Below, one piece after another: positions 1,589 to 6,430 of a stretch of 43,968 nucleotides of DNA (position 1 is its first letter; every line of letters begins with the position of its first letter). Position numbers and translations under genes: made by a program. Origin of the DNA: an uncultured Acidobacteriia bacterium (lineage in GTDB: Bacteria; Acidobacteriota; Terriglobia; Bryobacterales; Bryobacteraceae); NCBI GenBank assembly GCA_903900705.1, contig CAIUOG010000135.1, forward strand, positions 1-43,968, in the 5' to 3' direction. Below the pieces are notes generated by a model. It ran no database searches and was not told where the DNA came from. It worked only from the letters and a program-made list of their open reading frames with translations.

Positions 1589-3241
1589 CTATGGATTATT
1601 CACCGTCGCGTGGTCTTCGGGCGGCGGAAGAGAAGGGTCCAGAGAGATCGGAATGGTGAAGCGGAACGCCGCGCCCATGCCAAAAACGGATTCCACCCAG
1701 AGCCGCCCGCCATGTCGCTCCACGATCTTCCTGCAAAGCGGCAGCCCAATGCCCGTGCCGGGGATCTCATCACCATGCAGGCGCTGGAACATACCGAATA
1801 TCGATTCCGCGTGCCTCTGCTCAATGCCCATGCCGTTATCCTGCACTGAGAATAACCACCGGTCGCCTGCATTCTCCGCTGAGATCCGGATAACGGGCGC
1901 CGCTTCGCCCCGGTACTGAATGGCATTGCCGATGAGCGTCCGGAACAGTTGCCCGAGCAGTGGCTCATCGGCCGCCACGGTGGGTAGAGGCCCGGCTGTC
2001 ACCGTTGCGACGTTTGTCTCAATCTCCCGGCCCAGATGTTCCAGCGTCTGCGACAGGACCGCGCCGCAGTCGACGGGCGTCATGTGGAGCCCGCTCCGTT
2101 CCATAACGCCGCGGTAATCGAGAAGGGCCTGCAACAAAGTCTCGATCTTCTGCGCATGGCGGAGGGTATCGGAGATAAATTCGTCCGCGTGGGCGGAAAT
2201 CCTTCCCCGGTGTTCCTCCTCCAGCAGCCTGGCGGAGGTGACCAGCATGCTCAGTGGGCCGCGAAGGCCATCCGTAAGCGCTTCGCCAAATTTCCGAAGC
2301 TCCGCGCTCGCGGCCTCAAGCGCGTCGGCGTTCTCCCGTCGCTCCGTAATGTCGAGAAACACCCCCACGCTGCCACGGGGGCGGCCGGCCTCATCGAACA
2401 GAGGCACGGCGTTCCCGAGCCAGCATCGATAGACGCCGTCATCGAACAGGACGTCGAATTCGTAGTCATCGACGCGCCGCCCCGTGCGAGCGGCGGTCTG
2501 CATGGGCAGTTCGTCCGGAGGGATGTCCCGGCCTTCCCTCAGCTTGCGCCATTTCTTGAGCTGATCGAGGTTGAGAGTTGTCTTTGCACTGTTGTCCGGA
2601 GACTGCAGACGAAGCATTTCCCAGGCTCTGCGGTTACCCAGAACGCGCCGGCACGCCGCATCGTTCCCAATAAAGACGCCCGCCGGCGCCGCCTCCAGAA
2701 CCGCGGCAATCTCGGCATGCCGTTTCTGCTCGCTCAGATCGGTGATGATCGCGCACCGGCACCAGATTCCGTCCAGGAAGACGTTCTGAATCGAGATATA
2801 GACCGGAATCAGAACAGCGGCCTCCGTGAACAGCCGCACCTCGGCCTTACTTCTGCCGACGTTGCCGAGCAAAGCGGACACCAGACCGACATCATCCGAA
2901 GCCACGAACTCCTGCAAACGCGAACCCATCACACGTTCGAGCGGACGGCCGAGCATGGCGGCAAAGTACTGGTTCGAAAAGAGAATCAGCCCGTCGGAAG
3001 AAAGAGTCAGAGCTCCTTCCCCCATCTCTTCCACCATGACGCGGTAGGCTTCGTCGGCCCCCTTCAGCGTATAGACGCGGTCCCCATCGGGACCCGCCGC
3101 GACAATTGCGTCCACCTCTCCGCCGGCAAGGGCGCGGAGTGTCTCAGTGGCTTCATCCAGCCGCGCCTGCAGATCCCCAACCTGTTCGCGGAGGCCGTTG
3201 ATTTCCGCTGTGGGCGCCAGTTCAGGCGACATTTCTTTCAC
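1589..3241 (-). CDS. PAS-domain histidine kinase of the Kai cluster, phospho-His missing
   Basis: About 550 residues. A coiled coil at 12-40 precedes the conserved LRALAGGEVDAIV module, then come two PAS domains (about 65-170 and 175-300), a dimerisation helix pair (311-380) and an HATPase domain (about 425-535) with N box, G1 DNGMGI and G2 GTGIGL. The H-box aligns without gaps to the usual F-x5-HDLRxPL pattern but reads FGEALTDGLRGPL: Asp324 replaces the acceptor His and Gly325 the Asp. The codons are GAT GGC. Autophosphorylation on the usual residue is thus unlikely; a scaffold, phosphatase or allosteric role is possible. It starts at GTG inside the 3' end of the second kaiB (20-nt overlap), implying translational coupling. 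By position it is the likely Kai output protein. Confidence 0.92.
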   Translation of the reverse strand: MKEMSPELAPTAEINGLREQVGDLQARLDEATETLRALAGGEVDAIVAAGPDGDRVYTLKGADEAYRVMVEEMGEGALTLSSDGLILFSNQYFAAMLGRPLERVMGSRLQEFVASDDVGLVSALLGNVGRSKAEVRLFTEAAVLIPVYISIQNVFLDGIWCRCAIITDLSEQKRHAEIAAVLEAAPAGVFIGNDAACRRVLGNRRAWEMLRLQSPDNSAKTTLNLDQLKKWRKLREGRDIPPDELPMQTAARTGRRVDDYEFDVLFDDGVYRCWLGNAVPLFDEAGRPRGSVGVFLDITERRENADALEAASAELRKFGEALTDGLRGPLSMLVTSARLLEEEHRGRISAHADEFISDTLRHAQKIETLLQALLDYRGVMERSGLHMTPVDCGAVLSQTLEHLGREIETNVATVTAGPLPTVAADEPLLGQLFRTLIGNAIQYRGEAAPVIRISAENAGDRWLFSVQDNGMGIEQRHAESIFGMFQRLHGDEIPGTGIGLPLCRKIVERHGGRLWVESVFGMGAAFRFTIPISLDPSLPPPEDHATVNNP

Positions 3242-3626
3242 CAGGGAGCACTGTCCGTCCGGATGCGGGAGTAGATGCGGGAGATACGTGCGTGCCGCTG
3301 CCCAACCCGGCCAGAACGCGCGGCGTGTCGGACAGATCGCCGATCACCCGGCGCTGCGGCAGCGGGAGGTACTTCACCAGGGTCGGCGTCAGGACAATCT
3401 GCGCCAGCCGGGCCATTTCCGGATTCTGATGGAGATCAATCACTTCGAGTTGGTACCGGCCGGGCAGGTGCTCCTCGCAGATTGCCCGTATATTCCGGAC
3501 CGCGCGAAGGCTTTTCGGAGTGCTTCCCGAAATGTAGAGCCGCAGGCCCAGGTGCTCATCTCGCGCGTTCCCCGCGAGAGCCGCCTCGAATTCCGCGATG
3601 CTGTCAGCCGTATCCGGGCGTTTCAT
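3222..3626 (-). CDS. kaiB: KaiB-family protein, second copy (extended)
   Basis: 134 residues with a thioredoxin-like KaiB core at about 27-110: [15 protein letters not shown], the EVIDLHQNP motif, [10 protein letters not shown] with the cis-Pro segment, and [15 protein letters not shown]. KaiB proteins switch fold and bind the CI ring of KaiC. Compared with cyanobacterial KaiB (about 100 residues), this copy has about 26 extra N-terminal residues and a polar tail of about 25. Its start ATG overlaps the stop of the upstream kaiB by 4 nt (ATGA), and its own 3' end contains the kinase start. It is more divergent than the first copy (GLGS where typical KaiB has GLDL), so it may have a different partner or a non-clock role. 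Confidence 0.92.
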
Positions 3627-3952
3627 TGTGAGGATGCCGATTGCTGTCGCTGCAAGTCGAGGCCCACAAGCACCCGCTCCGTATTCGACAGGTCGCCGAT
3701 GATCTTTCGGACCGGCTCCGGCAGTTTCCGCACCAGCGTCGGCAGCGCGAGAATCTGGTCTCCCGCCGCCAGTTGCGGGTTCAGAAGCAGATCGATGATC
3801 TCAATTCGATACTCCCCGGCCAGATGTTCATCACAGATCCGCTTGAGGTTCACAAAGGCCTGCAGCGACTTCGCCGTCTGACCCGCCACGTACAACTTCA
3901 GCTCCCATTTCGCGACGGGGGGATTGCCGGTGCGCCGTGATCCACTCTGCAT
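3623..3952 (-). CDS. kaiB: KaiB-family protein, first copy (canonical)
   Basis: 109 residues, close to the classical KaiB length. The core is [48 protein letters not shown] and [12 protein letters not shown]. All blocks typical of KaiB are present, including the GDLS segment that changes fold and the cis-Pro PTL motif. It begins directly after the kaiC stop codon (TAG then ATG) and ends in a 4-nt overlap with the second kaiB, so the three genes are almost certainly one operon. In known systems KaiB binds phosphorylated KaiC or the ADP-bound CI ring and resets it. This copy is the better candidate for the real KaiC partner. Confidence 0.95.
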
Positions 3953-5758
3953 CTATGTTCCGCCTTTGGCCGCGGCCCGCGCGCGTGGGCCGCTCGTGCT
4001 GCCGCCGCTCGAAACATTCGGGCTGTTTTTGACGAAGCGGCTGCTCGCCATCTCGCCCCGGTCCCGTTCGAGCTTCGTAACCTTCAGCTTCTCCTGCTCA
4101 ATCAGCTGTTGTGCTTCCTGCTGTTCGGTCTCCAGTGCAAGCTGCAGAGCGGCAATCTGTGTGCTCAGCGCCCGGCGCTTGCACTCCAGCAGCAGTTGTT
4201 TCCGTTCGATCTCCTGCCGTCCCATCAGGGCCGCGGATGCGTCCTGCGCCTCCTGCGTCACGCGGGCCGAGCCGGTGAGCATTCCCGCATCGCCCAGGTA
4301 CACCTCGCGAAGCTCCACCCCGTGATCGGTCAGCAGAAACTCGCGAATCTGATTCGAGTGGGCAACCCCGCGGGCTTTGAGGATGTAGATGCCCCTGTTT
4401 CGCTCTCCCCCGCTTTCAATGTCTCGCAGCAGCAGCCACACGTCGACGAGCGATGAGATGTCGATCTCGGTTTGTTCCCGCGCACTCTCTCCACTGGTCA
4501 GAGTCGTCATCAGCGCCGTGATCTGTCTCTCCTTCAGGAAATCGATCAGCCGCAGCAGCGTGCTCCGGGTTTCGAACGCCGTGCCCGCATGCAGCAACCC
4601 CGTCACCGGGTCCACCACAACCAGACTCGGACTGAACTGCCGGATAATCTTGTGGATCTTGAGCAGATGCATTTCGAGACCGAACGTACAGGGCCGGACC
4701 GAATGAAAGTGGAGCAGTCCCTTATCCACCCAATGCTTCAGATCGATTCCGATGGACCGCATGTTGCGAATGATCTGTGCCTCTGACTCTTCGAAAGAGA
4801 GGATCACGCACCGCTCTCCGCGGCCACACGCCGCAGCCACAAAATGCCCGCTGAGGCTCGTCTTGCCGGTGCCGGAGGTGCCGGAGATCAGGATGCTGCT
4901 GCCCCGATAGTAACCGGCGCCGCCGAACATGGTGTCGAGAGCGGGAACCCCGGTCGACAGGCGGTCGTTGCACACGCCGTACTTCAGATCCATGGAAGTG
5001 ACCGGCAGCACGGAAATACCGTCGCTCTCAATCAGGAACGGATACTCGTTCATTCCGTGAGTGGAACCGCGGTATTTGACCACCCGCAGCCGTCGTGTCA
5101 GGACCGTTTCGGTCACCTGATGATCCAGCACAATGACGCAATCGGAAAGATACTCTTCCAGACCATGGCGGGTGAGCGCGTTCACACCCCGCTCGCCGGT
5201 GACGATGGTCGTGAGATTTCTCTCCTTCAGCCAGCGGAACAGACGTCGCAGTTCCGCCCGCAGCGTCTCATTGTTTTGGAGGCCGGCGAACAGAGCTTCC
5301 ACGCTGTCAAGCAACACCCTTTTGGCGCCGATGGAATCCACGGCATACCCGAGGCGCACAAAGAGGGCCTCCAGGTCGTACTCGCCGGCTTCCTCGATCA
5401 GGCCCCGTTCCAGATAAACGTGATCGATCACCAACTGCTTTTGTTCAATCAGCGCGGCCAGGTCAAAGCCGAGCGAGGCGACATTGACGGTGAGTTCTTC
5501 GGCGGTTTCTTCGAATGAGAGACAGACGCCGGGCTCACCGAATTCGGTCGCGCCGCGCACCAGAAATTCCATTCCCAGCAGTGTCTTCCCGCAACCGGCG
5601 GAACCGCACACCAGCGTCGGTCTGCCTCGCGGAAGGCCGCCGAGCGTAATCTCATCCAGCCCCTGAATTCCGGTCGGGCATTTCGGAAGCTGGGACGAAA
5701 GGAATTGGGTGGGGCTGGTGACGTTGGTGGAGGTCTTTTTCAGTTTGGAGGCTCGCAT
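3953..5758 (-). CDS. kaiC: KaiC circadian/timer ATPase with C-terminal coiled coil
   Basis: 601 residues from the ATG chosen here. Two tandem RecA-like domains: CI Walker A GSAGCGKT at 52-59 and catalytic pair Glu83-Glu84; CII Walker A GTSGTGKT at 293-300 and Glu323-Glu324. Aligned to cyanobacterial KaiC, the CII phosphorylation positions T426/S431/T432 are Thr430, Ser435 and Ser436 (in TEIDISS). After the core (about residue 495) a charged, leucine-rich coiled coil runs to about 570, then a Ser/Gly/basic tail. Such an extension is known from KaiA-independent KaiC of Rhodobacter sphaeroides, where it joins two hexamers. The frame stays open upstream to 5983, overlapping the regulator gene, but KaiC homology begins near this Met. 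Another in-frame ATG is at 5791; no start has a convincing ribosome-binding site. Confidence 0.95.
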   Translation of the reverse strand: MRASKLKKTSTNVTSPTQFLSSQLPKCPTGIQGLDEITLGGLPRGRPTLVCGSAGCGKTLLGMEFLVRGATEFGEPGVCLSFEETAEELTVNVASLGFDLAALIEQKQLVIDHVYLERGLIEEAGEYDLEALFVRLGYAVDSIGAKRVLLDSVEALFAGLQNNETLRAELRRLFRWLKERNLTTIVTGERGVNALTRHGLEEYLSDCVIVLDHQVTETVLTRRLRVVKYRGSTHGMNEYPFLIESDGISVLPVTSMDLKYGVCNDRLSTGVPALDTMFGGAGYYRGSSILISGTSGTGKTSLSGHFVAAACGRGERCVILSFEESEAQIIRNMRSIGIDLKHWVDKGLLHFHSVRPCTFGLEMHLLKIHKIIRQFSPSLVVVDPVTGLLHAGTAFETRSTLLRLIDFLKERQITALMTTLTSGESAREQTEIDISSLVDVWLLLRDIESGGERNRGIYILKARGVAHSNQIREFLLTDHGVELREVYLGDAGMLTGSARVTQEAQDASAALMGRQEIERKQLLLECKRRALSTQIAALQLALETEQQEAQQLIEQEKLKVTKLERDRGEMASSRFVKNSPNVSSGGSTSGPRARAAAKGGT

Positions 5759-5921
5759 TCGTTTTTGGGTATGTCCTGTAGTCGGGTGCATGTCGATGGC
5801 CACTGGACACGCAAAGAGCACTACCCTCCCGAACCGGGGAAAAGGGCTGTTAATCGCGGGCTTCGACCAGTCAGGCCGTGCTGGAGCCCCGGGGACGCCA
5901 GGCCTTCGCTGACCACGCAAA

Positions 5922-5937
5922 TGACCATATGTGGTCA
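5922..5937. promoter_or_regulatory. inverted repeat TGACCA-N4-TGGTCA upstream of kaiC
   Basis: The 193-bp stretch 5759-5951 between the regulator stop and the kaiC start has no other gene. It contains a perfect 6+6 inverted repeat (TGACCA, spacer TATG, TGGTCA), with a further GACCAC half-site about 10 bp away at 5910-5915. The arrangement suits a dimeric DNA-binding protein acting on kaiC, but it could also be a weak stem after the regulator gene. I found no good -35/-10 pair in the gap. Confidence 0.35.
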
Positions 5938-5951
5938 CTGCCCGAGGGCTG

Positions 5952-6338
5952 CTACGCCGACGTGAGGCCTGAAACCAGGGCACAGAGTTGGGACGGGATA
6001 AATGGCTTGGCCAGGAAATGCCAGCCTTCGTTGAGAACCAGCATTCCGTTCGGAAACCCGGACATCAGCAGAACCTTGATGCCGGGACGCTCCAGACTTA
6101 CCCGCGTGGCAAGGTCAACCCCCGTCATTTCGGGCATTTGAAAATCGGAGAGAAGAAGATCGATCTTCCCCGCATGGTCGCGCAGCACCTGCAGTGCGTC
6201 CTGTCCGCTGCCCGCGGTGATCACATCATAGTGATGCTCGGTAAGGAGCGTTGACACGAATTCGAGGATGTCTGCCTGGTCGTCGACCACAAGAATGGTC
6301 TTTTGTTTTTTTTGCCGTGTGGGCGACAGAGTTTCCAT
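5952..6338 (-). CDS. single-domain response regulator upstream of kaiC
   Basis: About 128 residues, a CheY-like receiver with no output domain. The acidic pair is in ILVVDDQADI, the phospho-acceptor Asp in LLLSDFQMPEMTG, the Ser in LLMSG and the conserved Lys in FLAKPF, so the phosphorylation site is intact. Start chosen at METLSP because GGAAGG lies 1-2 nt beyond the usual spacing upstream; a longer frame to 6368 has no support. It is the promoter-proximal gene of the minus-strand Kai set, 193 bp before kaiC. The local kinase lacks its His, so the phosphodonor must be another kinase or the regulator works unphosphorylated. Divergent from the gene at 6431. Confidence 0.9.
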   Translation of the reverse strand: METLSPTRQKKQKTILVVDDQADILEFVSTLLTEHHYDVITAGSGQDALQVLRDHAGKIDLLLSDFQMPEMTGVDLATRVSLERPGIKVLLMSGFPNGMLVLNEGWHFLAKPFIPSQLCALVSGLTSA

Positions 6339-6430
6339 GCCTTCCGTTAAGAGCAACCCATGAGCCATTGAAGCCGCTGTGCAACGGCCCCTGACGTGCC
6401 TTCCGCACTGCGGAGGAACTCGTAAACCAT

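Follow-up and report, generated by a model that had tools for sequence, protein, structure and literature searches.

An operon in an uncultured bacterium of the Bryobacteraceae (Acidobacteriota) bears on how KaiBC systems outside the cyanobacteria hand on time information. The operon lies in a stretch of 43,968 nucleotides (GenBank contig CAIUOG010000135.1, our contig C135; the whole stretch is hereafter called the window) of a 6.1-Mb genome assembled in 179 contigs with a completeness of 99.9%. A first-pass annotation had proposed a Kai timing operon in a probable acidobacterium, and the closest named relatives by KaiC are indeed Bryobacterales and other Acidobacteria metagenome-assembled genomes (best 80 of 145 matches in a KaiC search). 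All five genes that it had listed, encoding a response regulator, KaiC, two KaiBs, and a PAS-HATPase protein, were found in the predicted places (Table 1). From right to left, the operon consists of kaiC, kaiB-1, kaiB-2, and the PAS-HATPase gene (1589-5758), and the zero or overlapping spacing described for these four genes was borne out: the kaiC stop codon abuts the kaiB-1 ATG, kaiB-1 and kaiB-2 overlap by 4 bases, and kaiB-2 and the kinase gene overlap by 20 bases. Here we report that the protein encoded behind the second KaiB starts with a short module linked to KaiB genes, and that KaiB-2 and the module may form a separately encoded counterpart of the cyanobacterial output kinase SasA.

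Tandem KaiB paralogues behind kaiC

Both KaiBs of the window match PF07689 (5e-26 and 4e-23), as the annotation of two KaiBs had implied, and both score under the KaiB cut-offs of NCBIfam. No further KaiB was found in the genome. We compared 117 loci, nine of them duplicates, which were drawn from the KaiC search (best 80 of 145) and from the 45 genomes, of 257 in the order, that hold a KaiB (40 stretches first fetched). With the nine duplicates and the window set aside, two KaiBs follow kaiC in 83 of 108 loci with a KaiC above 200 bits; many of these 83 tandem loci are from Flavobacterium, so the number of independent cases is below 83.

In a tree of 151 KaiB domains (89 columns; 26 near-duplicate loci left out; bootstrap unsettled), the first copies of all 58 pairs fell into one clade together with the KaiB of Rhodobacter sphaeroides (64 rows, support 99/87), and the second copies fell into another, together with the KaiB encoded beside cyanobacterial KaiC2 (69 rows, support 99/87). 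The simplest account of this topology would be one old duplication, after which the two copies would for the most part have moved as a pair. Judged by record titles, about ten phyla hold such a pair, mostly in metagenome-assembled genomes, taken as binned. The position of Synechococcus elongatus G88 is Gly in 84 of 84 KaiB-1 sequences and in 46 of the 83 letters of KaiB-2, many related Flavobacterium included. The KaiB-2 of the window, which sits on a long branch (0.88), keeps G88 and has Gly in place of D90; the substitutions G88A and D90R reportedly favor the fold-switched state.

Two loci depart from the usual pattern. In L118 (genome G012), KaiC, KaiB-2, and the kinase with the module are present, and the other KaiB was not found in the genome. 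KaiB and module occur together at three separate loci in the genome of L037 (G674, Acetobacteraceae), which has seven KaiB matches in all.

A short N-terminal module is linked to KaiB

The protein encoded behind the last KaiB begins with about 55 residues of the consensus RLxEAEETLxAIRxGEVDALVxxGxxGxQVYTLxGADxxYR, in which Asp-Ala is invariant over 33 aligned rows. We refer to this region as the N-module. A first, strict pattern found it in only 51 of 83 loci; a profile built from these genes matched every one of the 84 tandem loci, that of the window among them. The match was direct in 82 and ran through other open reading frames of the same gene in L039 and L097. Five module matches outside the automatic choice also lay right behind a KaiB. 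In L097 (4688-6369), the gene of the module-PAS kinase is broken into two frames, through an assembly error or in reality.

We then scanned whole genomes. The 257 genomes of the order, with at most 25 candidates scored per genome, gave 35 matches in 34 genomes, and 34 of the 35 lay beside a KaiB (33 by script, that of G116 by hand); the one that did not, in G086, was the weakest of the list (22.6 bits). Among 44 genomes reached through the loci, mostly from other phyla, there were 46 matches in 40 genomes; 45 lay behind a KaiB, 40 had a second KaiB near, and the single nonadjacent match (G694:C35, 21.7 bits) was again the weakest. As these 44 genomes were picked for holding such a KaiC, their count tests specificity and not frequency; some of the loci counted had also gone into the profile. 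Both samples together place the module next to KaiB in 79 of 81 matches. Within the order, KaiB and module occurred together in 32 genomes, the module alone in 2, KaiB alone in 13, and neither in 210 (Fisher P = 5e-28). KaiB without the module is thus common, being found in these 13 genomes and in three cyanobacteria. As a matter of genomics, the linkage between KaiB and the module is firm.

No Pfam or NCBIfam family covers the module convincingly. LysR_substrate matched weakly (13 of 33 rows, best E value 6e-4) and was set aside as a chance motif, and the PDB gave only two weak matches, both to coiled-coil chains.

The pairing holds without a detectable KaiC and with different effectors. Genomes G028, G111, G112, and G116 carry a KaiB and a module kinase (loci L142, L143, L144, and L145). 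KaiC is absent from the stretches fetched, and KaiC-family matches across these genomes stay at or below 20.4 bits; the completeness of G111 and G116 is only 81 and 82%. The KaiBs of these four are closer to KaiB-2 (54, 62, 64, and 29 bits, against 42, 44, 52, and 21). Of 84 downstream proteins, 54 were scanned for domains: PAS_9 was present in all 54, HATPase_c in 39, HisKA in 31, HWE in 7, HisKA_3 in 6, and HisKA_2, a sigma-54 domain, and HD in 1 each. In a locus of the Planctomycetaceae (L035:3935-6055), KaiB-2, the N-module, GGDEF, and EAL lie within a single open reading frame of 707 residues. Over 57 loci, once the contributions of KaiC and KaiB-1 were taken out, the distances of KaiB-2 and module were correlated (partial r = 0.36; P = 0.001 by permutation) and those of KaiB-2 and PAS1 were not (-0.17); as a sign of a KaiB-2/module link, these correlations are suggestive only.

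The kinase of the window's clade lacks the phosphoacceptor His

Ten loci, the window among them, form one clade of the KaiC tree (support 99). At the column of the HisKA phosphoacceptor, eight of their kinases have Gln (CAG or CAA), that of the window has Asp (GAT), and that of L094, which lies deep inside the clade, has His (CAC). Kinase rows outside the clade that aligned at the H-box have His, as judged by eye, several of the effectors there not being kinases. The shortest account would be a single old loss of His, with a change to Asp in the window and a reversion to His in L094; by our own count on a partly unresolved tree, an ancestral His would require four to six losses. As read from the alignment, the loss of the phosphoacceptor is firm, and in the window the H-box residues around it are altered as well. 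The window kinase matches HATPase_c at 81.9 bits and HisKA at 17.2 bits, under the cut-off of 26.9, and five of the ten clade members match HisKA at an E value of 0.01. The nucleotide-binding motifs are mostly kept, the last of them being changed in L101 and L118.

Despite the loss of His, the clade's kinase is under purifying selection. For eight pairs, the ratio of nonsynonymous to synonymous substitution rates (dN/dS, Nei-Gojobori; rough, since dS is often near 1) was 0.11 to 0.25 in the ATPase domain, 0.12 to 0.51 in the dimerization and histidine phosphotransfer (DHp) domain, and 0.11 to 0.43 elsewhere where finite. DHp is the least conserved domain (mean identity of 0.50, compared with 0.62 to 0.73). 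A SasA model with a cut-off of 342 bits scored 29 on KaiB-2 and 101 on the kinase. A search of 396 genomes of the phylum for relatives of the window kinase at an E value of 1e-60 returned only the window itself, which says little, since scoring was limited to three candidates in each genome and the sample had few members of its own family. The first-pass annotation had granted the operon its own output arm. What stands of it as conserved is KaiB-2 with the module-PAS protein; the kinase of the clade has lost its His, a point absent from that annotation, and close relatives do not share the response regulator.

KaiB-1 and KaiB-2 differ in their predicted folds

We modeled both KaiBs of the window with AlphaFold2 from matched 11-row alignments, the KaiB-1 and KaiB-2 rows coming from the same loci. 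The idea of using only close sequences is taken from PMC10808063, and a single run was made per KaiB, without control. The KaiB-1 model (mean predicted local distance difference test score [pLDDT], 69) has the C-terminal strand, and its 17 PDB matches at E values of ≤0.001 were all to chains of 1wwj, 1vgl, 1r5p, 2qke, and 4kso. We take 1wwj, 1vgl, 1r5p, and 4kso to be ground-state crystal KaiBs. The remaining entry, 2qke, is ground-state KaiB (PMC10808063). The KaiB-2 model reached a pLDDT of 55.8, with values of <50 over much of the C-terminal half. Its first 11 matches were to chains of 8fwj, 5jyt, 4kun, 5n8y, 5jwr, 5jwo, 5jwq, and 8ubh, which are fold-switched KaiBs (5n8y presumably so). 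SasA N-domains bound to KaiC CI came next (6x61, E value of 5.5e-4), and ground-state 1r5p did not appear before rank 34. The predicted contrast between a ground-state KaiB-1 and a fold-switched or SasA-like KaiB-2 is clear, with low confidence in the KaiB-2 part.

KaiC belongs to the R. sphaeroides type

The KaiC of the window matches PF06745 twice, and the ATPase motifs had rightly been called intact, Walker A and the catalytic EE being present in both CI and CII. Five other PF06745 matches in the genome are weak (20 to 32 bits). Its best solved relatives are KaiC chains from R. sphaeroides, with 627.6 bits for 8dba; among the remaining KaiC chains, 8zn5 scores highest (357.8 bits), and S. 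elongatus-type chains score about 338 or less. The KaiC tree, made with a short search and the Shimodaira-Hasegawa-like approximate likelihood ratio test (SH-aLRT) only, places the window with R. sphaeroides KaiC, itself on a long branch, among KaiC2-type proteins and apart from KaiC1, and by scores and tree this KaiC is of the KaiC2/R. sphaeroides type. It has an SS phosphosite, a trait that it shares within the set of 83 rows, where 75 have SS, four short-tailed KaiCs among them.

The tail, for which about 50 residues are expected in this type, extends 95 residues beyond the reference column; it is at least 56 residues long in 71 of 83 rows and at most 18 in the other 12. It aligns without gaps with the R. 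sphaeroides chain up to residue 554 of the latter, so the likeness of the long tail to that of R. sphaeroides stands. The coiled coil that was proposed along with it, which would join two hexamers, is predicted by homology alone: a periodicity test gave P values of 0.08 to 0.13 for the window and of 0.95 and 0.82 for the R. sphaeroides tail itself and was uninformative.

KaiA (PF07688), the further component of a KaiABC circadian oscillator, was detected in none of 61 genomes, the window's own and those of 60 relatives, while Synechococcus gave a signal as a control; the reported lack of KaiA is supported genome-wide. Taken alone, the KaiC type and the KaiA-less KaiBC system are of an already known kind, in which membership is firm, and by homology a timing function of the system is plausible.

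Another kind of KaiC occurs in the same family (L090, L119, L120, L121, L123, L124, L125, L127, and L129). It has a short tail, falls on the KaiC1 side of the tree, and in most loci has kaiB just before kaiC; its phosphosite is ST in five loci and SS in four.

A two-KaiB relay as a possible output arm

We propose that the operon encodes a KaiA-independent KaiBC timer with a relay of two KaiBs, KaiB-2 being a split SasA, and with an effector that lacks its His, and we give this proposal about an even chance. KaiC would run an SS phosphorylation cycle by itself, and KaiB-1, by homology, would be the metamorphic clock KaiB that binds the CI ring and drives the reset. KaiB-2 would be a dedicated second KaiB, in or leaning to the thioredoxin-like, binding-competent fold. 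It would pair with the N-module that heads the next protein, so that the state of KaiC would reach a PAS protein with an exchangeable effector, KaiB-2 and the N-module protein making up a SasA in two pieces; for KaiB-2 as the split sensor, we put the balance at even or below. In the window's clade, the effector would have kept its ATPase-fold domain and would act on another protein. Because it lacks the phosphoacceptor His, contact or allostery, as in DivL of Caulobacter, would most likely be its mode of action, not phosphotransfer from its own His. More broadly, KaiB-2 and the N-module could be a generic SasA encoded in separate genes and spread over about ten phyla, its kinase having turned into a non-phosphorylatable, DivL-like effector in the Bryobacteraceae. 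A KaiB locked near the fold-switched state would link KaiC2 rings to effectors that can be swapped, namely kinases (HisKA, HWE, and HisKA_3), a sigma-54 activator, and GGDEF-EAL, and could persist without KaiC. We advance this wider version tentatively, with the chances rather against it.

Several results weigh against these proposals. The KaiC-free units may mean that KaiB-2 and the module serve something besides KaiC, and the adjacency of KaiB and module may reflect joint inheritance of an operon; module distances also correlate with those of KaiB-1 (0.25) and KaiC (0.27), and those of KaiB-1 and KaiC with each other (0.40). The KaiB-2 model is of low confidence, and the use of AlphaFold2 on fold switchers is disputed (PMC11934219). 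KaiB-2 of the window retains G88, and L094 has the His. With two SasA queries, KaiB-2 outscores its KaiB-1 partner in no more than 58 and 65 of 84 pairs, its medians of 28.6 and 28.8 bits lie among those of canonical KaiBs (26.7 to 31.6), and SasA sits on a long branch outside; neither scores nor tree support a special sequence kinship between KaiB-2 and SasA. The locus might be an ordinary KaiBC-kinase operon. KaiB-2 would then be redundant or fine-tuning, doing no more than compete with KaiB-1 for KaiC, and the module would simply cap the N-terminal end of the PAS dimer and travel along with the operon. Operons of kaiC, kaiB, and a kinase have been described (PMC4794148, PMC3164672, and PMC5520375), and a cap would fit the coiled-coil chains that the module matches and its correlation with all three Kai proteins. 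We regard this explanation as unlikely, if a serious contender, as module and KaiB stay paired where no KaiC is detectable and across exchanged effectors, are fused once (L035), and the two KaiBs differ in conservation at G88.

The direction of signaling and the state of the kinase allow further alternatives. The arm could be an input, its PAS protein sensing redox or a metabolite and resetting KaiC through KaiB-2. PAS domains in every downstream protein scanned would suit this, and a similar role was suggested for the R. sphaeroides kinase (PMC5520375 and PMC10931921); we think it quite improbable, as the sigma-54 activator and the GGDEF-EAL effectors look like outputs. That the kinase is active after all, phosphorylating another residue or working in a heterodimer where its own ATPase domain phosphorylates the His of a partner kinase, is consistent with the nucleotide-binding motifs kept in most members and with purifying selection. 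It is improbable given that DHp is the least conserved domain and that no partner kinase is seen in the window's operon. Decay of the window kinase toward a pseudogene could explain the lost His, the changed H-box neighbors, and the long branch of KaiB-2, and we consider it very improbable indeed: the His loss is common to nine of ten clade members, Gln is maintained through CAA/CAG changes, the frame is open in the window, and dN/dS is 0.11 to 0.51 where finite in five domains and eight pairs.

Relation to known systems

KaiC2-type proteins with a long tail and KaiA-independent phosphorylation have been described (PMC10076222). The R. sphaeroides KaiBC system of that paper resembles the one in the window in KaiC type, SS sites, long C-terminal tail (predicted here, by homology, to be a coiled coil), lack of KaiA, and a KaiB-1-type KaiB; the window operon differs in having a second KaiB and a kinase without His. 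The Rhodopseudomonas palustris operon has the same order of kaiC, kaiB, and PAS histidine kinase, with one kaiB as described there (PMC4794148). Kinases or GGDEF/EAL genes behind kaiC/kaiB and receiver genes near kaiC were reported in a paper on Ramlibacter (PMC3164672); tandem kaiB and the N-module are not among the kaiC contexts in the section consulted, and the RtaNt domain described there is a feature of kinases in genomes that lack kaiB. Our searches of open-licence papers turned up no earlier description of tandem kaiB, of the N-module, or of a Kai kinase lacking the His.

Cyanobacterial SasA carries a KaiB-like thioredoxin-fold domain ahead of its kinase, whereas the window has two separate genes, and a fusion occurs only in L035, to GGDEF-EAL. 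SasA homologues outside the cyanobacteria lack the KaiB-like domain, and RpaA orthologues were found in only nine genera (PMC5520375). For the His-less kinase, DivL may be the nearest precedent of action: it too is a PAS protein of kinase fold without the phosphoacceptor, with Tyr where the window's clade has Gln or Asp. DivL showed no activity as a kinase or as a phosphatase, and it binds a response regulator in its phosphorylated form (PMC4211667); for the kinase of the window's clade, the likeness to DivL is seen in the missing His only. If the proposal is true, a KaiB paralogue and a Kai-specific module would be the missing output piece, encoded as separate genes, and would be so in cultured species too, Flavobacterium johnsoniae (L051) for one. 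An early duplication of KaiB would have yielded a clock part and a signaling part. A pseudokinase as terminal output would then be unusual, and two KaiBs with a His-less output kinase suggest a candidate way for such timers to signal.

The upstream response regulator and neighboring genes

The response regulator consists of a receiver domain alone. It runs in the same direction as kaiC, as annotated, and it is not tightly coupled to kaiC, the gap being 160 to 193 bases. No homologue was found near kaiC in 13 close relatives (E value of 1e-5), and one far match lies in L015; we therefore keep it outside the conserved unit, and its candidacy as a conserved output partner is unsupported in these relatives. 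Single-domain receivers are encoded ahead of kaiC in L112 (1575-2012) and L115 (1734-2174), two loci of the window's family with one KaiB each; they are placed like the response regulator of the window, yet are only about 20 bits alike. In L028 and L043, receiver-bearing proteins of 600 residues abut kaiC. Receiver genes ahead of kaiC thus occur in a few distant loci, and the response regulator may still work with the unit.

Table 1. Positions in the window of the Kai operon, its motifs, and the upstream gene
Feature	Position	Strand	Remarks
kaiC, 601 residues, KaiC2/R. sphaeroides type by sequence	3953..5758	-	ATG 5758; in-frame ATG 5791 also possible
KaiC CI Walker A, GSAGCGKT	5582..5605	-	
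KaiC CII Walker A, GTSGTGKTS	4856..4882	-	
KaiC Ser-Ser phosphosite, aligned with R. sphaeroides KaiC SS (S413/S414)	4451..4456	-	
KaiC C-terminal extension, homologous to R. sphaeroides coiled-coil tail	4034..4258	-	
kaiB-1, grouping with R. sphaeroides KaiB, fold predicted as ground state	3623..3952	-	Domain match, tree, model
kaiB-2, old paralogue in a clade of its own, fold predicted at low confidence as fold-switched	3222..3626	-	Domain match, tree, model
N-module + PAS + DHp-like + HATPase_c protein without phosphoacceptor His	1589..3241	-	
N-module, about 55 residues, almost only right behind a KaiB gene	3026..3199	-	
Codon GAT (Asp324), column of HisKA phosphoacceptor His	2270..2272	-	
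HATPase_c domain with DxGxG and GTGIGL motifs	1646..1969	-	
Single-domain response regulator, membership in unit doubtful	5952..6368	-	Adjacent; not conserved in close relatives

A gene without a Pfam match lies 36 bases behind the kinase gene on the minus strand (947-1552), and no homologue of it was found in the loci of 13 close relatives. At the start of the contig, a gene for a sigma-54 activator (14-907) is convergent to the operon.

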